Shown: piece after piece, positions 7,681 through 47,031 of the stretch
How the letters are laid out: every line of letters starts with the position of its first letter
How positions within the stretch are numbered: the stretch's first letter is position 1
From: Ceratorhiza oryzae-sativae
Lineage: Eukaryota > Basidiomycota > Agaricomycetes > Cantharellales > Ceratobasidiaceae
Direction of reading: 5' to 3'
DNA: 64,000 nt
Assembly (NCBI GenBank): GCA_030998015.1
Contig: JARWMV010000038.1
Coordinates: 1 to 64,000 of the forward strand
Translations under genes and position numbers: made by a program
Notes under the pieces: model-generated
Told to the model about the DNA's origin: nothing
Databases searched by the model: none
The model's input: the letters and a program-made list of their open reading frames with translations, nothing else

Positions 7681-7687
7681 CACTTCC

Positions 7688-11099: not shown

Positions 11100-11185
11100 A
11101 AAGAGCCATCCAGGATACCCAAGAAAGGCCAGAGCCTGCTCTACCACCTCACTTGCACCACAACACACCTGCGAAACCCCAAAAC

Positions 11186-12000: not shown

Positions 12001-12081
12001 CCACTTTGCCTCCCACAAATTGTCTCCCGAATGTATAAGAGTTTTATTTTTCTTTTACACACCAAACTTAATACATTTCTT

Positions 12082-13124: not shown

Positions 13125-13682
13125 ATGCTCTCTTCCCAGTCCCCAAACACCTCTAAAACTGTAAACGATGCTAAGCGGAAATGGATCGAACGCGGCAACA
13201 CCCCAGCCAAGTGGATCAAGCGAAGGGCAGAGGTTGGCGTCGCCATTGCCAGCGCCCTCGGTATCAAGCCGAGCCCCCTTGCCCACTTCTATGCGGCCTA
13301 CGCCAACGGATCGAGGGTCCGAAGAGCTGACCGAAACTGTGCTGGCCCCTCGGTTCCGCGTCCAGACCAGGGCGGTGCTGCTGACCTGGTTGAAGCTACG
13401 CGATCAGCCCTCAAGTGGGCTTGTCGCCCGATACGAGGCATTCTGCCGCCAACAGCCAAATCATTGGGTGACTTTGGCGGTGGTGGAACGCCACAACCCC
13501 AAGGAACCAAACTACGACCTGGCCCGGCCCCTCCATGTCCACGCCCTCTCCATCAGTCAGGAGCAGAAGGGCAGCTGGAACACCCAGAACACCCGGTTCT
13601 GGGACTTTGAGGGGCAACACCCCAACATCCTGCCGAAGGACCTCAAGGACAGACCAGGAGGCAACCCAGCAAGGGATGCCTT
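13125..13682 (+). pseudogene. CRESS/geminivirus-like Rep, HUH-endonuclease part, copy 1
   Basis: The frame from 13168 encodes rolling-circle motif I (AVLLTWLKL, about 13371), a two-His motif II (PLHVHALSI, about 13528) and a GRS-like FWDFEGQHPNI (about 13601). The sequence is cut at 13682 by the nested gypsy, within the codons before motif III. Upstream, the frame from 13125 gives a basic segment (AKRKWIERGNTPAKWIKRRA) that is better conserved between copies than the overlapping 13168 frame and is offset by one base from the Rep frame. The N-terminus is therefore unresolved. The predicted role, by family, is nicking and joining of single-stranded DNA through the Tyr of motif III. Confidence 0.8.
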
Positions 13683-14192
13683 TGTCATGGCCTAGACCAT
13701 GACCGCGATTTTATTATGAATTTTCTATATTTTATAACTTCCTTTTTTATGATGTTTTGGACAAGTCCCGTTTATTCAGATATATGCGGTTTATCTACCT
13801 TCATGTCACGTGACCTTGTTGTTGTTGACTCAATGTTTGGTGTTACCGGAATGCTCTGTCGTGATGTGGCACTGTTAGCTCTTATTGGTCCTGGTATTTG
13901 ATTTGTACTGCCTCGGCCATGAATATATAAGGGAGAGTCTGAGAGCCTTAAGCCTCAGAACTCGACCTCCTGTCGTACCCCTTCTACTACCTGTGTGACT
14001 TACCAGTCCATAGTCCCTGCCCAGTCCTCTTAAGGACAAGTGCACCTACTACCCTACTCCCTTGCGTCTTATCGCACCTTCACTGCACGTCCCACCTTAG
14101 ACGTTGTCAGTAAAGCCTCCGGCATCGCTGCCCATAGGCTTGTCATCACCACTTAGGTGTTTGACGTTACTGTTCAGGTCGTAGCTCTGACA
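13683..14192 (+). repeat. 5' LTR of nested gypsy (LTR-G)
   Basis: It is 510 bp, TGTCATGGCC to GCTCTGACA. A TATA-like gaatatataaggg lies near 13921, about 260 bp into the LTR, the likely U3/R promoter. Divergent solo copies occur at 25280-25792 (+) and 37064-38264 (-). Confidence 0.95.
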
Positions 14193-14560
14193 TTAGGTCG
14201 AGTTCTTCCTCATCACTCGGGATTGAGACGTACCCCTGTACTAGCCTACTGTGAAACGGAGAAAGGCTCGGACCGCATAATAATCAAAAGCGGAAAGAGA
14301 CTATCCAGTAACAGGTGTCTACAAGGCAGAAGGTACCTATCGCCCAACCCTAGGACTCTTGTCCATCACCGCACGTGTTGCAGACAGCAAACTACCCGCT
14401 TGCAAAAAAGACGCTCTATATCACGCCCGTCAAAGGCTTGTTGATTAGTTGTAGTCATTGTTCAACGCTAGGTAGCAGAGCAGCCACAGTGTTTGAGAGT
14501 GAAAATCCCGGCTTCAAGAGCACCCACCATACTTGTCCATCCCACTCCCTTTTTTAGCTA

Positions 14561-15873
14561 TGTCCGCACCAAACCCTGCCCCCGCTTGGATTCAGTTCGA
14601 TGCCACTCAGATTCAAATACCCACCGATCCAGCCGACCTATTAGCATTCACCCAAACAATCAAGGATGCGCTGATCGCAATAAACAACAATCTGGCGGTA
14701 TTCATCAATCAACAGTCGGCTGAACTATCCACTATCAACACCACTCTCCAGAACCACGATACAAGCCTATCTAACCTTGATACGAATGTAGTCGCGCTCC
14801 AGGCTGCAGTCCAAGCACCTGGTACAAGCACCTCTATTGCGCATACTCAAGCACCCAAGTTATCGGCGCCTGCTAAATTCGATGGTTCGGATAAAAACAA
14901 AGCGGTATCCTTCAGGGTCGCAGTGGCTCATTATTTGCGGACTTCCTATCCCTCTGCGACTGCTGATGAGCAGATCGCTTACATCATTTCCTGCCTGGAT
15001 GGCAAAGCACACGAATGGCTGGAACCCTATCTGGAAGACAATGTTATCAATGGCAATCCAGTCACTTGGCTTCACAATGTCAATGACTTCTGGACCCAAT
15101 TTAACGCTTGCTGGAACGTCGCCAACAAGACCGAAAACTTCAGGGCAAAATTCAAATCGCTCAAACAAAAGAATTCGGTCCAGGAATACTTCAAAGACTT
15201 CCAGACATATTCCCAGGGCCTCGGCTACAATGACGCATCCCTTCGCGATCACTTCTATGATGGTCTCACGGTCAAAATCAAGGAATTCCTTGTGGCCCAA
15301 GACTATGATCATATGGCTGCCAATGTCACCCTGCAAACCCTTGCAGATAAGGCACTCAGAATCGATCAGCGCATTGAGTCGTTCCAGGCACAAAACCCAT
15401 CTTCCAAATCCTCCACTTCCAATGTGGCTAGCACCTCTACCAAAGCTTCCACCTTGCCGTCAACAGCTCCTCCCAAAGGCCAGGCCAGGGAAAAGATGTC
15501 TGTTGGGGAAAAGGTGTACACACTTGGTTCAGATGGCAAGGCTCGCAAAGGAACAATCACGGCTATAAACCGCAATGCCAAGGGACAGTCGATTCCCACG
15601 ATCAAATGGAATGACGGATCATCTGAGGAAACAACCTTCAAACAAATCCAAAAAGATTCGCATCCAATCGTCGTCGCTCCCCCAGCTCCCCAACTCGCTA
15701 AAGGATCAGGTCCAGGACCCATGGATCTTGACTCAGCGGGCAAAGGGAAAAAGCCTCTCATCTGCAATAACTGTGGAGGAAGAGGCCATATCGCAAGTGC
15801 CTGCCCATCCAAACCCTATTCAGGGCAAGGCGCCACTTTATCTGATGAGGAGTCGGAAAACGAGGACCTCTGA
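14561..15873 (+). CDS. Gag of nested gypsy
   Basis: An intact frame of about 437 codons starts at ATG 14561 (an ATG at 14533 is in frame but precedes the conserved start MSAPNPAP). The N-terminal third is Asn/Gln/Thr-rich with a coiled-coil-like spacing. The centre is a Retrotrans_gag domain (LDGKAHEWLEPY, TWLHNVNDFWTQF, EYFKDFQTYSQGLGY). The C-terminus has a CCHC knuckle (CNNCGGRGHIASAC, about 15765-15806) for RNA binding. It forms the particle shell by family analogy. The stop at 15873 lies 36 bp before the next open frame. Confidence 0.85.
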
Positions 15874-15908
15874 ACGCAGATGGAGCAAGCGTCTCAGAGG
15901 AACCAAAC

Positions 15909-18900
15909 ATGGACCTGGAAATTTATGCTGTAGATAACGTATCTCCTTTAAATATATTCTTTATCGCATCTCCAGTCCAGACCGCTCCTGATAGTAAAAG
16001 CTTGAATCGTATGAAGAGACTACATGGATGGGCCATGATAGATTCAGGAGCTTCATCTTGCTTCATCCACCCACGCCTCGTCTCAGAATACAAAATACCA
16101 ACTCATAAAAAGAAAAACCCAAAAAAATTAAAAGTTATTGATGGTCGTGAAATCAGTTCTGGACTTGTCGATTCAGAATGTACATTTATATTAGAAATTG
16201 GTAGTCATAAAGAGCAGTTGGTTTGTAACGTAGCAACATAGGTAGACATAGTTTAGTACTAGGAATGTCATGGCTCAAGTTACATAATCCTCATATTGAC
16301 TGGCCTATAAAACGTGTTGATTTTAATTCTGCCTTTTGTATTAAAAATTGTGTTCCCACATCAAATGTAGTCTTTGGTAATATTGGTGGTCATTTGGATC
16401 CATTTGAATCTGACCTTGGAGGTGTCGAGGTATTCCAACCTCTTGAAGGCATCCAAAGGGACCCTGGAGGTGTCGTGGCTTCAAAACCACTTGAAGGCAT
16501 CCCAGTCGAATACCGAGACTATTCGGATGTTTTTGCAGACGATGATGTGGTGACGGAATTACCTCCCCATCGTCCATATGATCTGGAGATAGTCCTCCAA
16601 GATCCCCAAAAACCAGTTAAAGGACCCGTATATCCCTTACGCCCTTCAGATGATGAAGAACTTCGCCGGATACTCAAAGAGCAGCTTGACAAAGGATTAA
16701 TTAGACCATCCAAGTCACGTTATAGCTCCCCGGTGATCTTCGTACCCAAAAAGAATGGCAAAAGGAGAATGTGTGTCGACTATCGTGCGCTTAATGAAAA
16801 TACAGTTAAAAACTCATACCCCATTCCACTAATATCTACGCTGGTGGAAAAATTACGGGGTGCACAGGTTTTCACTACCTTGGATCTGAAATGGGGTTAT
16901 AATCTTGTTCGGATTAAGGAAGGCGACGAATGGAAAACCGCGTTCAAAACAAAGTACGGCCTGTTCGAATACCTGGTAATGCCGTTTGGACTATGCAACG
17001 CTCCAGCCGCGTTCCAAAACTTCATGAATGAAATCTTCCGAGATATCCTAGACGTCTACGTAATTGTATACCTAGACGACATCCTTATATTCTCGAAAAA
17101 CTTGGAAGATCACGCCAAGCATGTCGCAGAAGTACTACGCCGATTAAGGCTTCATCAACTATACTGCAACTTGTCTAAATGCGTGTTCAATGCTCCTGAA
17201 GTGGAATATCTAGGCGTCATCGCTAACGGCGAAGGAGTCCGAGCTAACCTGGCAAAAATCACAGAAGCGGTGAATTGGGCAACACCGAAAACCGTGAAAG
17301 GCATTCAGGAATTCCTAGGATTCGTGAACTACTACCGCAAATTCATTGAGGACTTTGCTGGACGAGCATATCCGCTCTACCAATTACTCCGCAAAGAAAA
17401 TCCTTGGCGGTGGGGTCAAAACAAAGAAAGCTCATTTAACATTCTTAAAAGAGCCCTAGTAGAATCCCATCCTCATCCAACCTGACGTCACAAGGAATTC
17501 ACCCTGGAATGCGACGCTTCTGACTACGCCACTGGTGCAATCCTCAATCAGTTAGGCAAGGACGGAAAACTACATCCAGTGGCATTTTATTCCAAAACCC
17601 TATCACCAGCGAACGTAACTACGATATACATGACAAAGAGTTGCTGGCAATGATAAGGGCGTTCAAAGAATGGCGTCACTTGCTCGAAGGATCAGTAATC
17701 CCAATTAAAGTACTGTCGGATCACAAGAACTTAGAATTCTTCCAGACAAAAAGGGAACTGAATCGAAGACAAGCAAGGTGGATGGGATTCCTAGCCGATT
17801 ACAATTATAGGATCAAATACCGCTCAGGGGCACAAAATGGCAAAGCGGACATCCTCTCCCGTCGAGAAGACCTCCGGGAACAGGCACTTAAAGAGGGGGG
17901 TGAAATCCCGCCGCTTATCAGCCCCGAGCTTTTCATTTCGGCAATTCTGACTGACCACTCCCTCAATGATATGATAAGGGATGCGTTACCAGATGATAAG
18001 TCCGTATCCAAGATCCTCAAGTCCCTCGAGGAAGACATCCCGGTTAAAGGCTGGCGTCTTGAAAATGACTTGCTGTACTATCACGACCGAATCTACGTAC
18101 CAAGCGAGTTAGAAATCAGACGTGCAGTAATAGAAAGCCGGCATGATAATCCCGCAGTAGGGCACCCAGGGCACTTCCGAACCTTAGATCTTGTATCGAG
18201 GGATTACTATTGGTCGGGAATGAAAAAGTCCATTGTCAAATATGTCCAGGCATGCGACTCGTGCATCCGCAACAAGCATTCAAATCAGGCTCCTCTGGGT
18301 CTACTCCAACCTATAGACTTGCCCAATAAACCCTGGGAGGAAATCACGTACGACCTGATTGTTGGATTGCCGATGTCTGAAGGTTATGACGCAATACTCA
18401 CGGTGGTTGATCGTTTATCGAAGATGGTGCACTTTATACCAACTCACTCAAACGCCACTGCGGTAGATGTCGCAAACCTGTTTGTAAACTTTGTCTGGAA
18501 ACTACATGGACTTCCCCGAAAAACAATCTCTGACCGCGGCCCCAACTTCAACGCCAAATTCCTACGCCAAGTGTACAGTCGCCTCGGTATAGAGCCACAT
18601 TATTCCACGGCCTACCGACCACAGGTAGACGGTCAAAGTGAAAGACTCAACCAGTTCATCGAAATCTATCTGCGTCATTATATAAACCATCGGCAGACGG
18701 ACTGGGTTGCTGCGCTACCTCTTGGGGAATTTGCGTATAACAATGGGAAACATGCTGGATCAAAACATACTCCGTTCTTTGCCTGCTATGGCTACAATCC
18801 AGACTTTACAGTCGGAAATACCAAAGGAAGCAGTGTCCCTCAAGCCAATGAATATGCCGATCACCTCAAAACTATCCATGAAGAGGCCAAGGCTGCACTC

Positions 18901-19395
18901 ACGATTGCAAATCGCACTTACTCAGAATACTACAACCGAAGCATCGTGAGGCAACCAAGATCGAAGTAGGCTCAAAGGTTTTCTTAGACGGATCAAATAT
19001 CAAAACCATCCGACCATCCAAAAGTTGGATAATAGGCGCTTCGGTCCCTACAAGGTCGTTGAACAAATGGGAAATATACATTTAAATTGGATTTGCCCAA
19101 GTCCATGAAAGTATACCCGGTTTTCCATACTGCCCTTCTGTATCCTAAACCAGTGGACGATTACCAAAGGGACCCTGTCCCAGTACCACAGTAATAACCC
19201 CTGAAGGAGAGGAACAATATGAAGTGGAGCGTATCCTGGACTCACGCAAAGTCGGTCGGAGACTGAATATTATGTCAGCTGGAAAGGCTACGGCGCAGAA
19301 GAAAATAGTTGGGAACCTAAAGCCCATCTCAAGAATGCACCGGAAGCATTATCCAATTTCCACCAAGATCACCCTGACGCGCCTGGGCCTTAATG
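15909..19395 (+). pseudogene. Pol of nested gypsy (PR-RT-RH-INT-chromodomain), frameshifted
   Basis: Protease with DSGASS (about 16041); RT with YLDD (about 17071); RNase H with ECDASD (about 17508) and DHKNLEFF; integrase zinc region (about 18163-18270) and DDE catalytic core (TVVDRLSKM, TISDRGPNF, GQSERLNQ); chromodomain (YVSWKGYG...NSWEP, about 19270-19320). Frame breaks occur near 16240, 17485, 17615, 18968 and 19265, mostly single-base indels. Despite near-identical LTRs the copy is therefore not autonomous. Confidence 0.9.
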
Positions 19396-19404
19396 GGGGG
19401 GAAG
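19392..19404 (+). other. Polypurine tract of nested gypsy
   Basis: AATGGGGGGGAAG abuts the 3' LTR start, the expected site of plus-strand priming. Confidence 0.85.
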
Positions 19405-19912
19405 TGTCATGGCCTAGACCATGACCACGATTTTATTATGAATTTTCTATATTTTATAACTTCCTTTTTATGATGTTTTGGACAAGTCCCGTTTATTCAG
19501 ATATATGCGGTTTTTACCTTCATGTCACGTGACCTTGTTGTTGTTGACTCAATGTTTGGTGTTACCGGAATGTTCTGTAGTGACGTGGCACTATTAGCTT
19601 CTTATTGGTCCTGGTATTTGATTTGTACTGCCTCGGCCATGAATATATAAGGGAGAGTCTGAGAGCCTTAAGCCTCAGAACTCGACCTCCTGTCGTACCC
19701 CTTCTACTACCTGTGTGACTTACCAGTCCATAGTCCCTGCCCAGTCCTCTTAAGGACAAGTGCACCTACTACCCTACTCCCTTGCGTCTTATCGCACCTT
19801 CACTGCACGTCCCACCTTAGACGTTGTCAGTAAAGCCTCCGGCATCGCTGCCCATAGGCTTGTCATCACCACTTAGGTGTTTGACGTTACTGTTCAGGTC
19901 GTAGCTCTGACA
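19405..19912 (+). repeat. 3' LTR of nested gypsy (LTR-G)
   Basis: It is 508 bp. The last ~300 bp are identical to the 5' LTR; differences are confined to the first ~210 bp. Confidence 0.95.
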
Positions 19913-20689
19913 GCCTTCAACTATCTTTGGAAGGATGTTGGAGCTAATGGCGAGGAGATAGAGGACCTGATGGCGGGGGACCTGACCTTGGAAAGGTTGG
20001 AGGAGATTTTGGTAAAGGGAAAGGGCGGAAAAAGGTCAAGGATGGAGGCAGACTTGGAGGATGGGACAGAGATTGTTGCCTCAGCAACAAAACAGGAGTA
20101 CTACCAGGCGTTCAAGCACCTCCACCCCCTCCAGATGGTGACGACGTGGAACTCAGTACGAGCATATGCCAAGTACACATACAAGGAAGACTGGGGTTGC
20201 ATGCCTGCAATCCCTGTGGAGTTAGAGGTCCCAGAAGACTGGGAGCACATCGACCAAGCAGACAGATGGTTTGCCAAGGAAGTCGAGAAGAAGGGAAGAG
20301 GGGTGCGCCATTGCATCCTGGTGATAGAAGGAGAAACTGGAATGGGGAAAACAGCATATGCACAATCCAAGGGCTGCCACAGCCGGATGTGCAATGTGTG
20401 GAATATGGGCAACTTGTCGGAAGATGCCAACATTTGGATCCTGGATGACATGGTCCAGTCGAATGGGAAGTACTCGCTCAAGGCCCTGAGCCAGTACGAG
20501 GCGGACTTCACAGGCAGGTACGCACATGTGAAATTGATGAAGGTACAGCCAACAGTCATTCTGGGAAATAGCCAGTCGGCAATCATGAAATGTTGGTTGG
20601 ACATAGAGGGGGAAGAAGGGGATTTATGGGTATCAAGAAATGTGGAATGGGTGTATGCAGGAGGAAAGCCATTCTTTGTATTCCCTTAG
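19913..20689 (+). pseudogene. CRESS/geminivirus-like Rep, motif III and SF3 helicase part, copy 1
   Basis: This continues the interrupted Rep gene after the GCCTT duplication. It opens with rolling-circle motif III (YLWKD, about 19921; catalytic Tyr, Lys), then a linker, then an SF3 helicase: Walker A GETGMGKTA (about 20333), Walker B WILDDM (about 20436), motif C PTVILGN (about 20550). The stop is at 20687-20689. There is no internal stop or frame change in this half. Its closest look-alikes by motif are geminivirus and genomovirus Reps. Without the nested insertion the two halves would be collinear with copy 2. Confidence 0.85.
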
Positions 20690-20806
20690 AATAATTTATG
20701 GTACTGTACAACTTCTGCTATGCCCATCCAAACAGTTGGGGCTTTCTGAGAAGAAGCAGACAAATCCTCACCCCTAAATAACCTCCACAACAAAGAAAAG
20801 AAAAAC

Positions 20807-20938
20807 AATCTCATGTAACGGAGAGGTTAAGGGGTCTAGCCTGACTCAGCCTGACCCCATCGAACGATACTGAATCAGCCGAAAGGTCGTTGGTTCAAGT
20901 CCAGCGCCCTTAACCTCCTTGGTGCATGAGATTCCTTT
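20807..20938 (+). ncRNA. tRNA-like hairpin with Pol III B box, copy 1
   Basis: Two nested inverted arms (AATCTCATG/CATGAGATT and GAGGTTAAGGG at 20823-20833 with CCCTTAACCTC at 20907-20917) enclose a perfect tRNA T-arm: stem GTTGG/CCAGC with loop ttcaagt, giving the B box GGTTCAAGTCC (20892-20902). A TTTT run follows at about 20936. The D and anticodon arms are poor, so it is not a normal tRNA gene. Copy 2 conserves all of it with a consensus B box. Pol III transcription is inference. Confidence 0.55.
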
Positions 20939-20984
20939 TGCATAAGGAACTAAACCATGTCTCGAGGTCCCCCAAGACATGTCC

Positions 20985-20998
20985 AAAGGGGGGGATAA
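20985..20998 (+). other. Polypurine tract of Rep-gypsy copy 1
   Basis: AAAGGGGGGGATAA lies directly before the 3' LTR; the same string is present beside the 3' LTR of copy 2. Confidence 0.85.
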
Positions 20999-21894
20999 TG
21001 TTATGACCTGTCAAACAGACATAACAAAACAACCAAATATTTCTACAGATTTATGGCATTTTTCCTAAGCGGAACAAGCCATAAACAAGGTCACGTGACC
21101 TCGGCGCTTAGCTGGCGCTTACAGTGGTTACCCTGAACTCGCTCCAGCATTTCTCTCCATTGTTACTTGGAGCAAGGAGCGAGTTGTCATGTGATCTCGG
21201 CACTTACGGCAGGATCACGTGACCTCAGCGCCTACGGTGGTTACCCTGAACTCGCTCCAGCATTTCTCTCCCTTGTTACTTGGAGTGAGGAGCAAGTTAT
21301 CACGTGATCTTGGTGCTTACAGCATGATCACGTGACCTCAGCGCCTACGGTGGTTACCCTGAACTCGCTCCAGCATTTCTCTCCCTTGTTACTTGGAGCG
21401 AGGAGCGAGTTGTCACGTGATCTTGGCGCTTACAGAAGGGTCACGTGACCTCAGCGCTTATGGTTGTTACCCTGAACTCGCTCCAGCATTTCTCTCCCAT
21501 GTTACTTGGAGCGAGGAGCGAGTTGTCACATGATCTCGGCGCTTACGGCAGGATCACATGACCTCAGCGCCTACCCCTCGGACCTCGTGTGGCTCTATAA
21601 GATTCGGAGCCACACAAACTTAAGACAAACAATTACCTAACCCATAGTACTATACATAACCTACACCTACTGCGGAGTGTGCTTAGATAATACGTCTGCA
21701 GCCACCGCAGCCACAGGTATATATAAGGAGGATAAAGCAAGACTGGACGCCTCAGCTTGCTTTATCTCGTCAACCACCATAGACCATAGCAAAACACTGT
21801 AACTAGAACACTCAATACATACTGCATAGCACCAAACCGTCAACGTAGCCACTACTTAAGTGCTCCACCAGGGAGCCTCCAGAGGGTCACGACA
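20999..21894 (+). repeat. 3' LTR of Rep-gypsy copy 1 (896 bp)
   Basis: TGTTATGACC to GGTCACGACA, with four 113-bp repeats from 21128, a TATA-like tataagattc near 21595 and conserved 3' end; followed by TSD TGTGT. Confidence 0.95.
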
Positions 21895-25792: not shown

Positions 25793-26215
25793 GAACCCCT
25801 AAACAATAATAAATAGTTAGTATAATGCTTGTAAGCTGTGTGATGGTGATGAACAGACCTAAACACCATGTATAGTCTTCAGCAAGTGATCTGTCTTGAG
25901 GGTTGTTATAAGACAAATGAAATTGAGGGACTGAGACCTGAATGACAGCAATCAAATGAGTGTTACTCAAGGATTAAGGTGGTGGATCACTTGCAGAAGA
26001 TTGGTGTGGGGGGATAGGGTGGCAAGAGGGAGTTTGTTGGTTGGATTATGAACCTTTGGGGTTGATTTCTACCTCCAAGGGTGTTAGGGACAGTGTGACA
26101 CCTAGTGCAAGGCACAGGCTGGGCACAGGTGAGGGAAATTAGCAATTGACAGCCTTTGTACAATGAGTTGAGGATTCACAAGGCTCACCTTTAATGCTAC
26201 AGGGTGGTTGGGTGT

Positions 26216-26884
26216 TGTCGTGACCCTCTGGAGGCTTCCTTGTGAAGCACTTAAGTAGTGGCTGTGTTGATGGTTTGGTGCTATGCAATATGTATTGAGT
26301 GTTCTAGTTACAGTGTTTGCTATGGTCTATGGTGGTTGATGAGATAAAGCAAGCTGAGGTGTCCAGTCTTGCTTTATCCTTCTTATATATGCCTGTGGCT
26401 GTGGTGGCTGCGGACGTATTATCTAAGCACACTCTGCAGTAGGTGTAGGTTATGTACAGTACTATGGGTTAGGTAATTGTTTATCTTACGTTTGTGTGGC
26501 TCCAAATCTTATAGAGCTGCATGAGGTCTGAGGGGTAAGCGCTGAGGTCACTTGATCCTTCTGTAAGTGCTGAGATCACATGACAACTTGCTCCTTGCTC
26601 CAAGTCACAATGGAGAGAAATGCTGGAGCAAGTTCAGGGTAACCACCATAATCGCTGAGGTCACGTGATCCTGCTGCAAGTGCCAAGGTCATGTGACAAC
26701 TCGCTCCTTGCTCCAAGTAACAATGGAGAGAAATGCTGGAGCGAGTTCAGGGTAACCACTGTAAGTGCTGGCTAAGCACTGAGGTCATGTGACCTTGTTT
26801 ATGGCTTGTTCTGCTTAGGAAAAATGCCATAAATCTGTAAAAATATTTGGTTGTTTTGTTATGTCTGTTTGACAGGTCATAACA
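26216..26884 (-). repeat. 3' LTR of Rep-gypsy copy 2 (669 bp)
   Basis: Same family as 20999-21894 but with two 113-bp units instead of four. The polypurine tract (CCCCCCCTTT on +) abuts it at 26888-26897. Confidence 0.95.
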
Positions 26885-26951
26885 TTATCCCCCCCTTTGG
26901 ACATGTCTTGGGGGACCTCGAGACATGGTTTAGTTCCTTATGCAAAAGGAA

Positions 26952-27078
26952 TCTCATGCACCAAGGAGGTTAAGGGCACTGGACTCGAACCAACAACCTT
27001 TCAGCTGATTCAGTATTGTTTGATGAGGTCAGGCTGAGTCAGGCTAGACCCCTTAACCTCTCCGTTACATGAGATTGT
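26952..27078 (-). ncRNA. tRNA-like hairpin with Pol III B box, copy 2
   Basis: The minus strand carries the consensus B box GGTTCGAGTCC (26981-26991 on +) inside the same double inverted repeat as copy 1, with a TTTT run beyond. Changes in arm sequence between copies mostly keep pairing in the T-arm. Confidence 0.55.
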
Positions 27079-27193
27079 TTTTCTTTTCTTTGTTGTGGAG
27101 GTTATTTAGGGGTGAGGATTCGTCTGCTTCTTCTCAGAATGCCCCAACTGTTTGGATGGGCATAGCAGAAGTTGTACAGTACAGTAAATTATT

Positions 27194-28522
27194 CTAAGGG
27201 AATTCAAAGAATGGTTTTCCTCCTGCATACACCCATTCCACATTTCTTGATACCCATAAATCCCCTTCTTCCCCCTCTATGTCCAACCAACATTTCATGA
27301 TTGCCGACCAGCTATTTCCCAGAATAACTGTTGGCTGTACCTTCATCGATTTCACATGTGCGTACCTGCCTGTGAAGTCTGCCTCGTACTGGCTCAGGGC
27401 CTTGAGTGAGTACTTCCTGTTTGACTGGACCATGTTGTCCAGGATCCAAATGTCGGCATCTTCCAACAAGTTGCCCATATTCCACACATTGCACATCCGG
27501 CTGTGGCAGCCCTTGGATCGTGCATATGCTGTTTTCCCTGTTCCAGTTTCTCCTTCTATCACCAGGATGCGATGGCGCACCCCTCTTCCCCTCTTCTCAA
27601 CCTCCTTGGCAAACCATCTGTCTGCTTGGTCGATGTGCTCCTGGTCTTCTGGGACCTCTAACTCCACAGCAATTGCAGGCATGCAACCCTGGTCTTCCTT
27701 GTATGTGTACTTGGCATATGCTTGTACTGAGTTCCACATCGTCATCATCTGGAGGGGGCGGAGGCGCTTGAACGCCTGGTAGTATTCCTGTTTTGTTGCT
27801 GAGGCAACAATCTCTGTCCCATCCTCCAAGTCTGCCTCCATCCTTGACCGTTTTCTGCCTTTCCCTTCACCAAGATCTCCTCCAACCTTTCCAAGGTCAG
27901 GTCCCCCACCATCAAATCCTCTATCTCCTCACCAGTAGCTCCGATGTCCTTCCAGAGATAGTTGAAGGCATCCCTTGCTGGGTTGCCTCCTGGTCTGTCC
28001 TTGAGGTCTTTGGGCCATATGTTGGGGTGTTGCCCCTCGAAGTCCCAGAACCCCACATTCTGGGTGTTCCACCTGCCCTTCCGTTCCTGACTGATGGAGA
28101 GGGTGTGGACGTGCAGGGGCCAGGTCAGGTTGTAGTTTGGCTCCTCCAGGTTGTGCTGTTCGACCATGGCTAAGGTTGCCCAGTGATTGGGCCGGTGGCA
28201 GCAGAACACCTTGTATCGGGCGGCGAGCCCACTTGATGGGTGATCGCGTAGCTTCGACCAAGTCAGCAGCACTGCCCTGGTCTGGACATGGAATCGGGGG
28301 ACCCGTGCAGTTTTGGTCAGCTCTTCAGACCCACAATCCATCAGCATAAGCTGCATAGAAGCGGGTGAGGGGGCTTGGCTTGATTCCAAGGGCACCAGCA
28401 ATGGCGATGGTGACCTCTGCCCTGCGCTTGATTTGTTTGGCTGGGGTGTTCCCACATTCAAGCCATCTTCGCTTAGCATTGTTGATATTTTTAGAAGTAG
28501 ATGTGTCTTGTGGGGAGGGCAT
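27194..28522 (-). pseudogene. CRESS/geminivirus-like Rep, copy 2 (one-base frameshift)
   Basis: Motif I (AVLLTWSKL), motif II (PLHVHTLSI), GRS-like FWDFEGQHPNI and motif III (YLWKD) lie in one uninterrupted minus frame ending at 27745. The SF3 helicase (GETGTGKTA, WILDNM, PTVILGN) lies in the frame 27841-27194. Copy 1 shows one extra base in the AAAGGG-rich linker near 27870, so copy 2 has a single-base deletion between the nickase and helicase. The upstream frame (28522-28325) encodes the basic N-terminal segment and ends in a stop just before the Rep frame. About 78% residue identity to copy 1 in the HUH part and about 91% in the helicase (counted by eye). Confidence 0.85.
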
Positions 28523-29003
28523 GAGATGATAGCCCCTTTTACCCCCAAAGGTGTGCCCTAGATATACCCTCTCTGGTTGTTGTGGTCACATGGTTTCCTG
28601 ATGTAGGCTTGTGCTGGTTATGGCACATCTCTGAGGGGTGCCCTTCCTGCGTTCCCCTGCATCGGCCTTTCTCCTCACTATGCTCAGGGCCTCTGCTCCT
28701 CCACTTCGGTTGGTGCCCCCTCTCTGACCCCTCTGGTAGTTAGGGGATAGCGTGTATTCACATGACTAGGCTAGGTCATGTGATTCCCATGCTTTGTTGT
28801 TTGTTTTCTGGCAGGTGGTCATGTGACTAGGCTAGGCCATGTGGTTCCCGTGCTTTGTTGTTTGTTTCCTGGCAGATGGCCACATGTCTGTTGGTGTCAC
28901 CTGACCAGACCTTGTTTTGATGTTTGTGCAAGTTATTGTGTTGCACTGTGATTTTTTAATGTTTGTGGTTTTTGTTGTTTTCCTTCCTCATCCTGTCTTT
29001 ACT
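28523..29003. promoter_or_regulatory. Divergent intergenic region between Rep and ORFy, copy 2
   Basis: Counterpart of 12623-13124, with the duplicated unit containing TCACATGA-type near-palindromes (about 28780-28900). The TATA-like box of copy 1 is not preserved. No TAATATTAC nonamer seen. Confidence 0.5.
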
Positions 29004-29560
29004 ATGCGTGTTATTTCCCTTAACTACAATCCCCTTGACTGCACCTGCTGGTCTCTCCCTGAGGGGGAGTACTGCACCTACTGTGATGCTGTGTGCAACG
29101 CCTCCCTTGAAGACTTCTATGGAGGTGTCAGGGATTGGTTCTTCTGTGGGGTGCCAGGTACGTGTGCTCGTTCTTCATTGTTCTCATGTAGCTAACTTGT
29201 TCTGTAGAAGAACGCATCCTCCTTGATGGTTGGGCCCATGAGGCCACCCTTGAGCATGTCTGGGCACTTGTTGATCAGGACTACAAGTCCTTTGAGGAGC
29301 AGTCTCACCAGGCTGCTCTTGCCAAATTCTTCAAGGAGGGCTCTGCTCCCTTGTTTGATGAGGCTTTGCCCTTTGCAGTGTCTGGTTCTAGTTGTTTCCA
29401 GAACTACATGGCTGACTTCCCAGGGGGGGAGGCTCCTTGGCTGTGGCTCACTACCCAGTCAGTTGTTCAGACCAATAGGAAGGATAAAAAAGGCAAGAAG
29501 CCCTATACCTGGCCCCTCAAGGGCAAACGTAAAATAGAGAGTAAAAAGGACATGTATTAA
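29004..29560 (+). CDS. ORFy: Cys-rich spliced protein of unknown function, copy 2
   Basis: Exon 29004-29157 joins exon 29208-29560 over a 50-nt intron (gtacgt...ctgtag), giving 168 residues. The first third is Cys-rich (CTCWSLPEGEYC, YCDAVC, FFCGVP), a likely metal-binding fold. The middle looks helical, and the C-terminus is Lys/Arg-rich (KKPYTWPLKGKRK), which could bind nucleic acid or direct nuclear import. The intron sits at the same place as in copy 1. The stop falls ~65 bp before the end of ORFx on the other strand. An in-frame ATG at 28917 would add a hydrophobic leader. Family unknown; a CRESS-type second gene (for example a coat or movement protein) is only a positional guess. Confidence 0.6.
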
Positions 29561-29625
29561 GTTTGATGTGTAAAAAAAAAAAAACTCTTATACATTCGGG
29601 AGAAAACCCATGGGAGGCAAAGTGG

Positions 29626-30448
29626 TCATATGGGGGTTGGTTCCAACAGTGGCACCTCCTCCAGAGCTTCGACAAGCTTGTTTTCCCACCAGTCCCAGTC
29701 CTGTTTGGCTTCCTCCACAGCTGGGTCCAGGGTGGGTTCCTTTATTTCTGGCTTGGCTTCTTCCTCAGCCACAACCAGTGATTCTAGGCTTGATGTAAGG
29801 CTCGTCATATCAGTGTCGTAATTGGTGTTTTTGTTTGGGTGCACCTTCACCCAATTTTGGAAGTTGCTCATGTTTGCCCGCTTTGTCCTGATAGCAGTAA
29901 ACATCTCATCAGTGGTAGTTGCTTTGAGCAGTCCCACATACAGTGTGGCCAGTGTCAACTTCCATTCTTCCAGCAATGCCTTGGCCCAGCGCTCCACCTC
30001 CCAGTCCCCCCCATCTGCCATTTGGCCTGTGGCCCTCCTCTGTTGTCTTGCTGCCTTGGTCACCACGTCGACTGTTGGTCCCATGATATTGTCAACAACA
30101 TACATTGGTGTTCTTAGCAAGGCGTTTCTTGTTGTTGGCTTCCAGCTTCCATGCCATGTCAGGACCCCTAACCTGGGATCCAGGTACTTGTCATCATCAA
30201 TCCAGTTCCTTTCATCCCTTAACTTCTTTGGGATGTACACTAGGTTAGCCCCTGGCAACAGTTGTTCAGTGTACCTCTGGGAGTCTTCCACACTGGAGCA
30301 GTACATCCCTGGTTTAGGACGATTTTCCCTGCCAGGGTAGGGTGCTGGCTGCCTAGTGGGTGGGTGGCTGCCAAAGTGGGGCCACCTGATTTTCAGTAAG
30401 TGGTGTGTAATGGTTGGGATGTGCGACTGGGTGAGTGATGAAGGGCAT
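29626..30448 (-). pseudogene. ORFx: extra ORF downstream of the chromodomain, copy 2
   Basis: An open frame of 310 codons (30558-29626) covers the conserved body. Comparison with copy 1 suggests the natural start is the ATG at 30446-30448 in another frame, with an indel near 30360. The body has the LVYIPKKLRDERNW motif, a basic centre and an acidic Glu-rich tail. No known domain recognised. It ends about 65 bp from the convergent ORFy. Confidence 0.6.
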
Positions 30449-30554
30449 GTTTTGGGGTTTTGCAGGTGTATTCTGGTGCAAGTGAGGTGGTAGAGCGGGC
30501 TCTGGCCTTTCTTGGGTATCCTGGATGGCTCTTTTTTTAAAGCTTTCCAGATCC

Positions 30555-33500
30555 TCATTTGGTTCTCTTTGGCCTGCCTTTCAAGTCACCTGAGTGCTGA
30601 CTTGTCTTGGCTGGCATTGGTGCATATGGTAAGTGCCTTTGCAAGTCATTTAGAACCTCTTTCATGTCAGCAAACTTGCTGGCACGTTCCATTGTGTCTT
30701 CTATTGGGTTGTAGCCCTTCCATCTGATTTGGTAAAACAGCTTGCCATTCCGCCATTCATAATTTGCAATGTGGTCCACCTCGTATTCCTCCTCTCCTTC
30801 TTCTGTTATGATTGGTGGTGGTTTGGCCTGCCTTCTTTGGAAGTCTTTATCTTCTGTGAATGGCGAGAGGAGATTTACATGGAATACATTGTGTACACAT
30901 ATGGTTTTAGGTAGGTCCAGGCGATATGCATGGGATGAGATCTTTTCTGTGATTTCAAAAGGCCCCCCTTTTTGGTTGTCCAGTTTCTTGGAGGGTCTCT
31001 TGGACAAGAGGTTTGTTAGGAGCAGCCAAACCTTGTCTCCTACCTTGAATTCCCTCCCTTTCTTTTCCATTTGTTGGTGTAATTCCATTGAGGCTCTTGC
31101 CTCATCCCATACCTTTTCCATTTGATTACGCATGTTGTCTGCAGCGGGTGCCTCAGACAGTTCTTCTCCCTCTCGGACAACCCATCTTGGGTTTTTTCCA
31201 TATACTGTTTCAAATGGGGTTTGTCCTGTTGTAGCATTTACATGGTTGTTATGGCAGAATTCGGCAATGGGTAACCATTTTACCCAATCATCTTGTCTAT
31301 AATTGCAGAAGGTTCTTAAGAACCCTTCTACCCATTGATTTGTCCTTTCCGACAGACCATCTGTTTCTGGATGGAAGGTGGTGGAGAATCTGGGCTTTGT
31401 CCCAATTCCTTTGTATAGGGCTTTTAGGAATTGGCTGTTAAAGGTTGGCCCTTGGTCTGAGACAGTGGTTTCTGGGGTCCTGTGATGTCTCCATACCTCC
31501 CTTATGAATATTTCTGCCAGTTCTTCTGCATTGGTGCTCTCCAGACATGGTACAAAATGGGCCTGCCAGGAGAAGCGATCTACAACTGTCAAGATACTGT
31601 CGTACCCCTTTGAGACAGGTAATTTGACGATGAAATCATATGCACATCTGCCCATGGTTTCCATGGGATTGGTAAGGACTTCAGGGGAGTGCCTTGTTTG
31701 TGTCCTTTGCTTCTTTGACATGTTTCACAAGATTCCATGTATCGGTTTACTTGGGCCTTCATTCCTGGCCAATAGTAATCCCTTGATAGTAATTCTAGTG
31801 TTCGGGCTTGTCCCTGATGACCTGCCACTGGGGCGTCATGGCACTCCTCAAGGAGACTCAACCTCAAGTCCTTGTCATCTGGGATGTAGAGCCTATCGTC
31901 ATACCTTAATAGGCCCTCCTTCATTTCATACCGTCTAAATTCCTTCTGTACTGAGGGCGGTAGTTGTTCTTTATTTGCCATGCTCAGCCTTAAGGATCTG
32001 ATAGATTCGTCTTCTTCCTGAGCTTCTTTAAGCTCTTCCCAGAAATTCCCCTGTACTTCTGCCATGAAACCTATGAACCTTTCTTCTGGAATCATGATCT
32101 GTGGTTCCATAGGGGTATCCCCATGGTCGCTCCTTCTGGAAAGGGCATCTGGCTTCTGTGAGAGTTTCCCTGGTCTATACACAATCTGAAAATTGAAGGG
32201 TGCCAGAGTGAGATACCATCTGGCATGCCTTCTATTCCACATCTGGGCATTTTGCCAGTACTGGAGGTTCCTATGGTCAGTGTATATCACAATAGGTTCC
32301 TCTGTCCCTTCTAGGTATAACCTCCAGTGCTCTAAGGACCTGACAATTGCAAGCAACTCCTTGTCGTAGGTGTCATAATTTTTCTCTGGTGGGGTGAAGC
32401 TCTTCAATAGGAAGGCAATTGGATGCAATCGGTTGTCATCACCCTTTTGGCTTAGTACCGCCCCCATGGCCACTCCTGAGGCATCTGTTTCCAGTATGTA
32501 TGGCTTGTTTGGGTTTGGGTGGATTAAGACCGGTTCTCTTGCTACTGCTTCTTTGATAGCTTCAAATGCTTCCTGTTGTTTTCTTTCCCACAGGAATTTG
32601 ACATCTTTTTGAGTGAGATCTGTGAGGGGTTTGGCTAAGGTGCTAAACTTCTCTATCCACCTTCTATAGAACCCCACAAAGCCTAGGAATGCTTGGACTT
32701 CTTTTACTGTGTTAGGTTCTGGCCATTCTAGAACTGCCTTTACTTTTTCCTTTTCCATCGATATCCCTTCTGGGGATATGACAATTCTGATGAAGCTTAC
32801 CTCCTTCACAAAGAACTGACACTTGTGTGGTTTGAGGAAGAGGTGGTTTTCCCTCATTCTTCTTAACACTTCCCTGACATGTTGTACATGTTCTTCCCTG
32901 TTTCTGGAAAACACTAGTACATCGTCCATGTAGATTACCACATAATCATCTATATCACAGGAACTTTTCCATCATGAACCTGGTAAAGGTTCTTGGTCCT
33001 TCTTTACTCCAATGGCATGACCAAGCATTCAAACTGGCCTTCTCCTGTCCTGAAAGCTGTTTTCCATTCGTCTCCCTCTTTTACCCTGATGTTGTTGAAC
33101 CCCCATCGAACATCCATTTTTGAATAGATGGTTGCATCCTTCAGTCTCTCAATCAATTCTATTTGAATTGGAAGTGGAAACCTGTCTGGCTTGGTGATGT
33201 CATTCATCTTACGGTAGTCGACTACCAACCTAAGCCCCCCATCTGCTTTGTTCACATAGAAACAGGGTGCAGCTACAACTGACTGGCTGGGCCTTATTTT
33301 CCTGTTTCTTAGTTCCTCCTCTAGGTACTCCCTGAGCGCCTTTGTTTCTGCTGGCGACATACTGTACCTCTTTGCAGGCTTTGGCAGCTCCGCTCCCTCA
33401 ATCAGGTCCATTTTGAAGTCTAGGTAACCTTGGTGGGGTGGAAGTTCTTGGAAACCTTCTTCCCCAAATAGGTCTTCAAAATCCCTAAATTCTTCTGGGA

Positions 33501-33945
33501 TTTGTAGGCTTTCACTTGCTGCCCTTGCCTTGATTTCGTCTGGGTATGAGATGGTAAGGTCTTTCCAATCTATGATAGGTTCTGCTTCTTCAAGCCATTC
33601 TTTCCCTAGGACTATGTCTGTGTCACCTAGGGTCATCACATAAAGGGAGCATTTCAGTGTCTTCCCTTCCACTTTGATGTTTAGTTCTGCCCTTTCTTCT
33701 ATGGCATCCTTGATTTCATTTCCATCAATGGCCACAATTGATTTCTTGTGTTTGAGGGGAGTGGTTGGAATCCCTTTTTCCCTTGAATAGGCCTTATCGA
33801 TGAAGTTGGTTGAAGATCCTGAGTCAATCAGCGTCTTTGCTGGTTCCATGATTCCCTCTACCATAGTGTATATTATTGATTGATTACTAGACTTTTTGAG
33901 GTAACATACATCTGTGGTAGGGGTTATATTGGGGTCCTCCAACAT
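30555..33945 (-). pseudogene. Ty3/gypsy pol, Rep-gypsy copy 2
   Basis: Protease (DSGSS) and the first half of RT occupy 33945-33004; RT with YMDD, RNase H (ETDAS) and the integrase zinc region occupy 32941-31589; the integrase core (VVDRF, VSDQGPTF, GLSERTNQ), a GPF/GPY-like region and the chromodomain occupy 31721-30555. Breaks lie near 33000-32945 (indels before YMDD) and near 31650 (frame shift ahead of the integrase core). Otherwise it is about 99% identical in residues to copy 1 over the shared stretch (by eye). Confidence 0.9.
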
Positions 33946-33962
33946 GGAAGTGGTAGGACCAA

Positions 33963-35762
33963 TTAGTTTTCCAACTCAGAGCTGCTTTCTTCCTCAACTT
34001 GTCTGCTGGCCTTCCCTTGTATCTTAGCTTTGTCGTAGGTCCACTGGCCTTGGCACTCCTTCAGGACATGCCCTGATTTACCACATTTGATACAGAGTCC
34101 TTCTTTCCTTCGCCTGTCCTTTTCACTGTTTGGTATCCTTACCATGTTGTTGGTTTGGGTATTCCCCTGTTTGCCACTGGTCCCTAAAGGCTTGTTCCCC
34201 CCTTGTTTGTATTTTGCTGGTGCCCAGGTTGAATTTGATGAGTTGCTGGTCCTTGCATTCATTTTCTGGTTTGCAAACTGCATGTTGTCCATTTTGCAGG
34301 CAAAGTCGATTAATTGATCTAAGGTATATGATGGACCTTCAGCCTCATTTGCCAGTACTTCAATCCTTAAGATCTCTTGTCGTACTTTGGGTTTTAACCC
34401 TTCCCTGAATTGGTCCTTGAGGGCTTCCTGGTTCCAGTCTACCTCTTGGATCAGGATCCGGAATTGGGTAGCATAATCCAATGCGCTCTTGGTCTGTGTT
34501 AATTTCCTTAGTTTCTGGATGGCCTTTTCCTTTATGACTGGGTCATTAAAAGCATCCAGGAATCCCTTCCTGAAATCCTTCCAGGATGCAAGAATACCTG
34601 TGTGTTTGCCTGCTAGTAGTTTCCGGTGGTAAGGTTGTGCCCAGTTTGCTGCTTCCCCATCCTCCATGTTCATTAACACAGCAGATATCTTTTTTCAGTC
34701 ATCAAAGGCTGATTTGTCATAGTCAGCAAAGAAAAGTTCCATGCTGATTATGAAGTTCTCTGCTTCCTTCCCCTTTTTCCCATTAAATTTGCTGGGTCTC
34801 CCTAGTTGTGCCTCCTTAGGAGTGTGGTTTGCAGCAAGGGTAGGTTGGTTTGCTTGGGATGGAGGTTCTGTTTGGGGTCTTATTGTGGACTCAGCCTGGA
34901 AGGTTCTTCCCAGAAAGGGTGTTCGTACTGGGGAGGCTGAGGGGGATTGTGAGGGGCTTCCTATGACCACCCTAGTTCTTCCCCTGGTTTCTTCTGTCCT
35001 TTCCCTTGGCCTTCCTGCTTCAGTTGTTTTCCAGAGCTCATTTCCTAGATCGGTTACCTGTTGTTCTAGTGCAATTAGGATCTCCCCTGTGTTTTCAGTT
35101 TTCTTCTCTAAGCTTTCAAGCTTTTGCTCTTGCATTCCCAGTACCCAGTTTATTTCCATGGAGATGTCCTTTAATTCTTTTATCAGGTTCCCCATTTCTG
35201 CTTTTAGGTCGTCCTGGTTCTTTGCCACATAGAGGACATTTTTGTTGGATGTTTCCATTTACCTTACCATCCAGTCCACATTTCCTTCTTGTTGGGTTAG
35301 TGATATTTGACACTGATTTATACCTGTGATTGCCTTTTCTAGTTCCCTATGGTTATTGTCTCTAAGTTCCTTGAGCCCTGCCCTGATGGTGGTGGCAATG
35401 GTGTGAATAGGGTTGGCAGTGGCTATGGTTCCGGGACCTGGCTGGGGTTGTGTCCTTGCCTCTTCCACCAAGGCCGTGCCTTGTTTGTATATGGTTCAGG
35501 TCATATCTTCTACCTCATCCCTCTCTGGATTTGAGATATCTTCTGGGTCTGGATTTATCAGGTGAATTGGCAGTTGAGGGCTGCGGAGTGGTATTCCCCC
35601 TATTTCCCCTCCCAGGATGGGGGCCCGAGTGGGGTTGGGTTGAGCCACTGGTCGTGGGTTTTGTGGCAACCCCCCTGGCATTCCTTGGAGGGTCTCATCT
35701 GGGTTACCTTCAGCCTCTGGGGAAGCAATGGGTTTGGGTGATTGTGGCCTACTATTTGCCAC
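33963..35762 (-). pseudogene. Gag of Rep-gypsy copy 2
   Basis: Open blocks 35762-35496, 35471-35259, 35258-34695 and 34679-33963 are separated by stops. The third block is a long heptad-rich coiled coil (LKAEMGNLIKELKD...). The last is a Retrotrans_gag domain (WKDFRKGFLDAF, ALDYATQFRILIQEVDW) ending in a CCHC knuckle (CIKCGKSGHVLKEC). Copy 1 retains only the last part. Confidence 0.8.
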
Positions 35763-35899
35763 TCTGCTTTGAGATCAAGTTTGTGGTCTCTGTGACATAG
35801 TTTCTTTGTGTTCTCTTATGTATCACAGGAGTTAGCTGGTTTTCTTGTGTACTCAGCCCTTAGTATCTGTGTAGTATACTTATGTTCGCCACTAGTTAA

Positions 35900-35919
35900 G
35901 TTAAGAGCTTGCTTTATAA
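35900..35919 (-). other. Primer-binding-site region, Rep-gypsy copy 2
   Basis: Reading minus, the first bases after the 5' LTR are TTATAAAGCAAGCTCTTAAC. This is where a tRNA primer should pair; I could not match it to a named tRNA by eye. Confidence 0.4.
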
Positions 35920-36581
35920 TGTTGTGACCCTCTGGAGGCTCCCTTGTGGAGCACTTAAGTAGTGGCTGCATTGACGGTTTGGTGCTATGCAATGTATTGA
36001 GTGTTCTAGTTACAGTGTTTGCTATGGTCTATGGTGGTTGACAGATAAAGCAAGCTGAGGTGTCCAGTCTTGCTTTATCCTTCTTATATACCTGTGGCTG
36101 GTGGCTGCAGACGTATTATCTAAGCACACTCCGCAGTAGGTGTAGGTTATGTACAGTACTATGGGTTAGGTAATTGTTTATCTTAAGTTTGTGCGGCTCT
36201 GAATCTTATAGAGCTGTGTGAGGTCCAAGGGGTAGGCACTGAGGTCACGTGATCCTGCCATAAGCGCCAAGATCACATGACAACTTGCTCCTTGTTCCAA
36301 GTAACAATGGAGAGAAATGCTGGAGCAAGTTCAGGGTAACCACCATAAGCGCTGAGGTCACATGATCCTGCTGCAAGTGCCAAGGTCATGTGACAACTTG
36401 CTCCTTGCTCCAAGTAACAATGGAGAGAAATGCTGGAGCAAGTTCAGGGTAACCACCGTAAGCGCTGGCTATGCACTGAGGTCATGTGACCTTGTTTATG
36501 GCTTGTTCTGCTTAGGAAAAATGCCATAAATCTGTAAAAATATTTGGTTGTTTCGTTATGTCTGTTTGACAGGTCATAACA
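35920..36581 (-). repeat. 5' LTR of Rep-gypsy copy 2 (662 bp)
   Basis: TGTTATGACC to GGTCACAACA on the minus strand, with two 113-bp units; outer flank GGTGT. Confidence 0.95.
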
Positions 36582-36586
36582 GGTGT

Positions 36587-37063: not shown

Positions 37064-38264
37064 TGTCAGAGCCAACAACCTGAACAACAACACCAAATAC
37101 TTATGAGGTAATGGCAGATCCAAGGGCTGTAACACCAAGGATCAAGACTGCAATGCCTAGAGGGGGACATGCAGTGAGGGGATAGGTTGCAATGACATGC
37201 AGGAATAGTATAGAGGTGGGCTTGACCTTAAGAGGCCTGGGCAGAGACTAAGTGGCTTGGTGACCAACTCAGGTAGAAGGGGTAGTTCAACAGGAGGTCA
37301 AGCTCTGAGGCTTAAGGCTCTCAGACTCTCCCTTATATATTCAGCAGTGAGGCAGTACATGTGAAATAGGAAGCCTAGGTAAATTGTTATGACCTGTCAA
37401 ACAGACATAACAAAACAACCAAATATTTTTACAGATTTATGGCATTTTTCCTAAGCAGAACAAGCCATAAACAAGGTCACGTGACCTCAGCACTTAGCTG
37501 GCACTTACAGTGGTTACCCTGAACTTGCTCCAGCATTTCTCTCCCTTGTTACTTGGAGCGAGGAGCAAGTTGTCACATGATCTTGGTGCTTACAGAAGGG
37601 TCACGTGACCTCAGCGCTTATGGTTGTTACCCTGAACTCACTCCAGCATTTCTCTCCATTGTTACTTGGAGCGAGGAGCAAGTTGTCATGTGATCTCAGC
37701 GCTTACAGCAGGATCACGTGACCTCAGCGCCTACCCCTTGGACCTCACGTGGCTCTATAAGATTTGGAGCTGCACAAACTTAAGATAAACAATTACCTAA
37801 CCCATAGTACTGTACATAACCTACACCTACTGCAGAGTGTGCTTAGATAATATGTCCGCAGCCACCACAGCCACAAGTATATATAAGGAGGATAAAGCAA
37901 GACTGGACGCCTCAGCTTGCTTTATCTTGTCAACCACCATAGACCATAGCAAACACTGTAACTAGAATGCTCAATACATACTGCATAGCACCAAACCGTC
38001 AACGCAGCCACTAATTAAGTGCTTCACAAGGGAGCCTCCAGAGGGTCACAACATAAATTGTGAAATAACAGAAATGGTGCCATGTCAACAGAATATTCTG
38101 GAATGCATCAACAATGGTCAACAACAACAAGGTCACATGACTCAGTCAATAATTCTATACATATATCTGAATAAACAGGACTTGTCCAAAAGCCAGAGTA
38201 ATAGAGATAAAATAAAATAAGATAAAATTGGAATAAATTTGTGCTCATGGTCTTGGCCATGACA
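37064..38264 (-). repeat. LTR-G solo copy, split by another LTR
   Basis: Reversed, divergent LTR-G (TGTCAGAGCC...GGCCATGACA as read on +), interrupted at 37384 by the solo LTR-R. No clear target duplication remains outside. Confidence 0.7.
37385..38053 (+). repeat. Solo LTR of the Rep-gypsy family
   Basis: 669 bp, TGTTATGACC...GGTCACAACA, two 113-bp units, flanked by the perfect duplication TAAAT (37380-37384 and 38054-38058). It shows that a third full Rep-gypsy once inserted here and was removed by LTR recombination. Confidence 0.95.
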
Positions 38265-47013: not shown

Positions 47014-47031
47014 CTCCCCCTAACCGAGCCT

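Follow-up and report, generated by a model that had tools for sequence, protein, structure and literature searches.

A Ty3/gypsy-type retrotransposon family of Ceratorhiza oryzae-sativae with a Rep-like gene between pol and the polypurine tract

The stretch of the Ceratorhiza oryzae-sativae genome analysed here (contig JARWMV010000038.1, 64,000 nucleotides, hereafter the window or C38:1-64000; the genome comprises 48.8 Mb in 253 contigs) was found to carry a long terminal repeat (LTR) retrotransposon that includes a gene resembling the replication (Rep) genes of circular Rep-encoding single-stranded DNA (CRESS) viruses. This element, designated copy 2, lies on the minus strand at 26216-36581 and is bounded by the 5-bp target-site duplication (TSD) GGTGT. 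Its parts are arranged in the order LTR, primer-binding site (PBS), gag, pol, an open reading frame (ORF) designated ORF X, Rep, a hairpin, the polypurine tract (PPT) and LTR. Copy 2 very probably belongs to a family of Ty3/gypsy chromoviruses in which a Rep-like ORF regularly stands between pol or ORF X and the PPT and is kept by selection. The distribution of Rep over the genome supports the conclusion that it is part of the unit that transposes and has moved together with it. The features of copy 2 are as follows.

26211..26215, no strand: left copy of the TSD GGTGT, from reading of the flanks
26216..26884, minus strand: 3' LTR, 669 bp, from reading of the sequence and LTR comparison
26885..26900, minus strand: polypurine tract CCAAAGGGGGGGATAA, adjoining the 3' LTR
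26952..27073, minus strand: 122-nt hairpin common to the subfamilies
27194..28557, minus strand: Rep-like gene in two overlapping frames
29626..30585, minus strand: ORF X, 319 aa, without a Pfam match, from ORFs
30555..33975, minus strand: pol with protease, reverse transcriptase (RT), RNase H, integrase, SH3_Tf2-1 and chromodomain, frames broken, from ORFs and Pfam
33963..35258, minus strand: gag in two frames, from ORFs and Pfam
35906..35917, minus strand: PBS, 12 nt, complementary to part of the LTR about 32 nt downstream of the TATA box (self-priming layout)
35920..36581, minus strand: 5' LTR, 662 bp, from reading of the sequence and LTR comparison
36582..36586, no strand: right copy of the TSD GGTGT, from reading of the flanks

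Flanks, LTRs, Pfam matches and motifs bear out the first-pass annotation, in which this segment had been described as a TSD-bounded LTR element with gag, a chromodomain pol and Rep. The two LTRs are 94.6% identical. Matches to gag, protease, RT, RNase H, integrase and chromodomain families were obtained, the integrase core rve scoring under its Pfam cut-off and Chromo reaching 26.2 bits against a cut-off of 25.1 (24.4 bits, just under, in the genomic copy L050). Both gag and pol are broken across several frames. One Rep frame (28557-27745) holds the nuclease motifs and the other (27928-27194) the helicase motifs; together they include LLTW, HVH, HPNI, YLWKD, GETGTGKT and VILGN, the second Asp of Walker B being Asn. 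In two other genome copies Rep is encoded in one uninterrupted frame (428 and 442 aa), and when the C-terminal part of Rep was matched to the genome, 14 of the best 20 matches were free of internal stops. As the PPT is located behind Rep and adjoins the 3' LTR, Rep lies within the reverse-transcribed unit.

Genome-wide searches gave 150 scored Rep places out of 198 candidates and 92 scored pol places out of 1233. A same-strand Rep match was located downstream, within 12 kb, for 76 of the 92 pol matches, as against three on the opposite strand, and in 61 of the 76 pairs the distance was 3.7-4.4 kb. In these best-scored lists, pol or ORF X lies upstream at 120 of the 150 Rep places and neither was matched at 30. 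Sixteen pol matches, eight of them with ORF X, had no downstream match among the scored Rep places, and as these are 150 of 198 candidates, Rep-less members of the family are neither shown nor excluded. Of the 150 scored places, 34 distinct ones were read: the top 20, three that are diverged, copy 1 of the window, and 10 of those 30 at which nothing was matched upstream. They make up 38 rows, four places having been entered twice. An LTR on the same strand follows Rep in all 38 rows (34/34 places) at a median distance of 313 bp, including all 10 places that lacked a scored upstream match. Same-strand parts of gag, pol or ORF X were found upstream at six of these ten (L033, L035, L038, L039, L040 and L042, with weak matches of 37-40% only at L039), and no clear upstream parts at L034, L036, L037 and L041.

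Enclosure by LTRs and TSDs, a check proposed in the first-pass annotation, was seen as matching 5-bp TSDs in five of the seven elements whose two ends were both read (copies 1 and 2 of the window and those in C87, C236 and C20). The TSDs of the elements in C12 and C237 do not match; since these two share their flanks, they are probably one duplicated locus. Insertion of an unrelated Rep at one site is ruled out by the 150 scored places, the pairing with pol and the LTR downstream, and the earlier claim that Rep moved with the element stands. None of the outcomes named beforehand as telling against that claim, namely Rep copies that are rare, restricted to one duplicated locus or outside the LTR unit, was observed, Rep lying inside the LTR unit at each of the 34 places. 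The Rep-bearing family is abundant and fairly recent, five LTR pairs being 92.7-97.6% identical. A separate deletion family carrying Rep was also considered and rejected, as 40 of 290 candidates for the deletion junction of L033 were scored and none but L033 itself matched over the full length.

Selection on Rep, another check suggested earlier, was assessed from median Nei-Gojobori ratios of nonsynonymous to synonymous substitution rates (dN/dS), the pairs including two places entered twice (L018=L051, L011=L050) and the flank-sharing L043/L045. Between subfamilies B and C the ratio was 0.13 (9 pairs, mean dS 0.99), between the main copies and L033 0.29 (7 pairs), and within the main copies 0.44 (30 ordered pairs); values of 0.11 for main-B and 0.15 for main-C were obtained where dS is saturated or high. 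For the core genes of the main copies the ratios were 0.27 (protease/RT), 0.40 (RT/RNase H), 0.44 (gag) and 0.72 (integrase), and in L033 the pol parts gave 0.51-0.70 versus 0.29 for Rep. As the Rep value for the main copies is within the range of their core genes, Rep has been kept about as well as these, and the codon comparisons indicate that it is under purifying selection between subfamilies. It is carried even by subfamilies whose RT/RNase H is as low as 58-65% identical.

Much of the spacer from the Rep stop codon to the PPT aligns poorly between subfamilies, except for a well-aligned stretch of 122 nt that can be folded into a hairpin of 19 pairs in two helices, with 99.1% of positions paired (18 of 30 listed sequences). 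Eight alignment cells, located at two pairs, are changed on both sides. The cell measures were equalled by 0/500 shuffles, the number of pairs changed on both sides by 288/500 and the number of further pair types by 500/500. Sliding the pairing by 1-3 columns left 30-62% paired, and the computed fold of one copy was much more stable than those of its shuffled versions (z -5.3 as RNA, -4.0 as DNA). The genome contains 148 occurrences of the 17-base hairpin core and none of the reversed control, and 91 of 100 listed places are downstream of a Rep match; seven of the remaining nine are downstream of the family's ORF X or pol. In the window a covariance model picks out the two Rep elements alone and not the nested gypsy element described below; the 12 loci examined besides the window do not reach the matching place and are no real control for this model. 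A tRNA gene behind Rep was rejected, as ARAGORN found none and the Rfam tRNA-Sec model scored 13.2 bits against the 47 needed; the stretch in question is the hairpin. From its position beside Rep the hairpin is a candidate Rep site. The sequence TAATGTTAT at the PPT/LTR junction, seen in 17 of the 18 copies having that side and without a clear stem, could serve as a Rep origin and is a lead, though the PPT followed by the start of the LTR could also account for it; the nested Rep-less gypsy differs in sequence at this junction. Among nine main copies the hairpin differs more (0.036 per base) than its flanks (0.013 and 0.019), which counts against special constraint on it, and no nonanucleotide inside a clear stem was found in the element copies; both results also weigh against rolling-circle copying.

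The Rep protein, in which about 65 residues precede motif I, contains LLTW, HVH, HPNI, YLWKD, GETGTGKT, ILDD and VILGN, which correspond to motifs of CRESS Reps and stand in CRESS order. The motif names are those of PMC5923481. The ordered set occurred in 0/100,000 residue shuffles of the intact protein, 0/120 pol proteins and 0/276 control ORFs. It is present in 12 of 31 Rep homologues of at least 350 aa and not in the other 19, several of which are gene models with missing or replaced parts, as seen in an alignment (A1) of 27 of the 49 homologues and two copies from the studied genome. Motif columns of A1 are 0.917 identical to the reference versus 0.703 over all columns, a value equalled by 13 of 20,000 random column sets. 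In the 38 rows, both His of motif II are kept in all 35 that cover them, and Tyr and Lys of motif III in all 36. The Pfam family Gemini_AL1_M matches 12 of the 29 A1 members at E up to 1, the best match (P0010; E 0.001, 19.5 bits against a cut-off of 24) sitting between motif III and Walker A.

The protein is thus likely to be a true HUH/CRESS Rep, judging from its motifs. Several findings count against this: no Pfam match to it is above cut-off, 5/38 rows have another residue for the Walker A Thr and 7/38 for the second Asp of Walker B, the AlphaFold models are poor (predicted local distance difference test, pLDDT, 34 for the whole protein and 52 for the nuclease domain), and no Rep was among the best 50 fold matches per library obtained with the latter model. 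PDB sequence searches gave nothing relevant, a search of IMG/VR gave no viral relatives, IMG/VR pattern scans gave 44 loci with the motif set in none of their 276 ORFs of at least 250 aa, and plasmid and phage searches reached E values of 1 and 3 at best. None of these searches matched a known CRESS Rep significantly; the link consists of the motifs and the sub-threshold Pfam match. Capture from a CRESS plasmid, as suggested earlier, or from a CRESS virus is accordingly at most a possible source of Rep. An unrelated P-loop ATPase with nuclease-like motifs arisen by chance would agree with the low Pfam scores, with the weak nSTAND3 and AAA_22 matches that touch the P-loop alone, and with PDB sequence and fold searches that returned no Rep. 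The seven motifs in CRESS order, their absence from shuffles and controls, and the fact that the best weak Pfam match is Gemini_AL1_M in its place ahead of Walker A make that explanation decidedly unlikely.

Since the nicking residues and most ATPase residues are kept, the simplest reading is that Rep acts on DNA as an enzyme. In the proposed cycle, a transcript would be driven from the LTR, which has a TATA box, and cDNA would be self-primed at the PBS; part of this cDNA would circularise. Rep would nick circular or linear cDNA, perhaps at the adjacent hairpin or the LTR junction, and with its helicase might multiply the element DNA by rolling-circle replication ahead of integration. Integrase would then insert the copies with the 5-bp duplications seen as TSDs. 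Rolling-circle copying of cDNA circles is tentatively regarded as the most likely specific role. In its favour are the fixed place of Rep in the unit, the kept nuclease residues, the purifying selection and the hairpin that accompanies Rep across subfamilies. Slightly more doubtful is the full picture of a hybrid element whose cDNA circles are amplified by its own CRESS-type Rep from an origin at the hairpin or LTR junction and then inserted by integrase. It speaks against rolling-circle copying that the retroelement part looks standard and its machinery complete, so that the element would not need Rep, and that pol and Rep differ in part in their trees and, in L033, in their identity. Somewhat unlikely is a host-manipulation factor that lowers silencing by DNA methylation, or promotes DNA synthesis, without copying element DNA. 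Geminivirus Rep pushes cells towards DNA synthesis. A review states that it lowers the plant methyltransferases MET1 and CMT3 (PMC6338049). Differences within the five LTR pairs are mainly transitions (30/36, 28/30, 14/16, 43/49 and 35/37), as expected from cytosine methylation or a process like repeat-induced point mutation; transitions, however, dominate ordinary mutation too, and the nicking Tyr and both His, not obviously needed for such a role, are nevertheless kept. It is unlikely that Rep assists reverse transcription or integration as a single-strand endonuclease/helicase that trims, unwinds or processes ends, without any rolling-circle copying: the ORFs behind pol in rotifer LTR elements do include a DEDDy-type exonuclease class with 3'-end processing (PMC5408684), but the standard 5-bp TSDs, PPT and PBS give no sign that end processing is altered. 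The geminivirus-like Rep genes present in several fungal genomes (PMC3198968) would suit a Rep that descends from an endogenised CRESS mycovirus and is carried as a passenger or antiviral decoy, of no benefit to the element; with dN/dS of 0.11-0.29 between subfamilies and 0.44 in main copies, against 0.27-0.72 for core genes, this reading is very improbable.

LTR circles are usually regarded as dead ends, and retroelements and rolling-circle replicons are usually viewed as separate worlds. If rolling-circle copying is correct, the element combines reverse transcription with rolling-circle DNA replication. With a high-copy LTR family carrying a selected Rep-like gene, both the purpose of LTR circles and the exchange of modules between retroelements and CRESS replicons become testable.

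The order gag, protease, RT, RNase H, integrase is that of Ty3/gypsy elements, and the nearest pol proteins are named Tf2 protein (best 120 of 3015 matches). In 4/4 elements, from the main family and subfamily B, the 12-nt PBS begins 2 nt beyond the LTR, and its complement is found within the LTR, about 32 nt downstream of a TATA-like box. The family resembles Tf1/Tf2 and Tj1 of Schizosaccharomyces japonicus in its gag-PR-RT-RH-IN order (PR, protease; RH, RNase H; IN, integrase), SH3_Tf2-1, chromodomain, LTRs and PPT, and in a PBS complementary to the presumed transcript start in the LTR, an arrangement for self-priming like that of Tf1 and Tj1 (PMC4600332). Unlike these, it adds ORF X, the Rep-like gene and the 122-nt hairpin between pol and the PPT.

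Retroelements and transposons of other classes that carry Rep are known. Like the Tuber melanosporum transposon described by Liu et al. 2011 (PMC3198968), the present family has many Rep-bearing copies in a fungal genome; that transposon encodes a geminivirus-like Rep and has 37-bp terminal inverted repeats (TIRs), transposase ORFs and no clear TSD, whereas the present element has LTRs, 5-bp TSDs, RT and integrase, which rules out membership in the Tuber-type TIR transposons. Terminons, giant Penelope-like retroelements of rotifers, carry Rep genes, a possible pointer to circular intermediates, and LTR elements are able to capture ORFs behind pol (PMC6431247). The likeness to Terminons is that of retroelements able to carry Rep; they are endonuclease-deficient and telomeric (PMC6431247), while the present element has LTRs, and its gypsy-type pol with integrase domains rules out membership. 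The likeness to geminivirus/genomovirus-type CRESS Reps lies in the motif order I, II, HPNI, III, Walker A, B, C and in the weak Gemini_AL1_M match; the lack of a significant match, the residues ahead of motif I and the retroelement context set the protein apart. PMC5408684 lists the ORF3 types of rotifer LTR elements without the whole word Rep, and PMC6338049, on accessory domains of retrotransposons, mentions geminivirus Rep solely for its action against methylation. In full-text literature searches, which covered few subscription papers and no bioRxiv preprints, no report of a Rep gene in an LTR element came up. The earlier remark that no described family of this kind was known agrees with these searches, Rep-bearing transposons of other classes being described. 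The hairpin between Rep and the PPT and the Tf1-type self-priming layout are new beyond the earlier observation.

The nearest named protein relatives belong to Ceratobasidium (identity 76% for Rep, with 94% of the query covered, and 73% for pol, with 96% covered), and protein matches point to presence of the Rep family in several Ceratobasidium strains. All organism-named Rep homologues are from Ceratobasidium (49 matches in one search and 79 in another, many nameless), while pol of Rhizoctonia solani is 58-59% identical (best 120 of 3015 matches). It is therefore probable that the Ceratobasidium side acquired Rep or retained it, as judged from protein lists and not genomes. A simple common history of pol and Rep is opposed by the trees: L042, the sole subfamily C pol, groups apart from B, and the C Reps of L039 and L040 group with B, partly at odds with the pol tree; L033 (C236:9900-19800) has pol of 64% versus Rep of 81% identity. 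Exchange between lineages or uneven decay may lie behind this disagreement. L033 also has a unique deletion of ORF X and may be a mosaic or have decayed unevenly.

The further copies of the family in the window are listed below.

5092..21894, plus strand: copy 1, TSD TGTGT, same gene order, gag mostly missing, nested element inside
13168..13682, plus strand: copy 1 Rep, portion before the nested insertion
19913..20689, plus strand: copy 1 Rep, portion after the nested insertion
20810..20931, plus strand: copy 1 hairpin
37385..38053, plus strand: solo LTR, TSD TAAAT

For copy 1, the TSD and gene order given in the first-pass annotation were recovered, with two corrections: gag is mostly missing, and Rep is interrupted by a second gypsy element (13683-19912, plus strand, TSD GCCTT). 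This nested element has LTRs of 510 and 508 bp that are 98.8% identical and no Rep of its own. The solo LTR, with a TSD, is a further insertion, as had been noted.

ORF X, about 300-340 aa, lies behind pol in the window (29626-30585, minus strand), at L032:1399-2421 and at L050:5351-6253, where it lies in the pol frame, behind the pol stop codon. The window and L050 copies have no Pfam match; 130 genome matches were found, and dN/dS is 0.14-0.20 between subfamilies. Opposite the gap between ORF X and Rep, an antisense ORF of about 117-201 aa is present in three copies (window 29192-29560, plus strand, and 11829-12434, minus strand; L032:2503-2856, minus strand). The LTRs hold 113-bp tandem units, their number varying by LTR (for example, window 5208-5733 and 26536-26770), with repeated GTCACGTGAC palindromes that are possible protein-binding sites.

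Outside the family, a copia-type element was found at 46721-52675 (minus strand) with terminal direct repeats of about 293 bp that are 98% identical and with copia gag and integrase domains. A further repeat family occupies 1-3350 and 41309-42335, about 39 kb apart, with stretches 95-98% identical.

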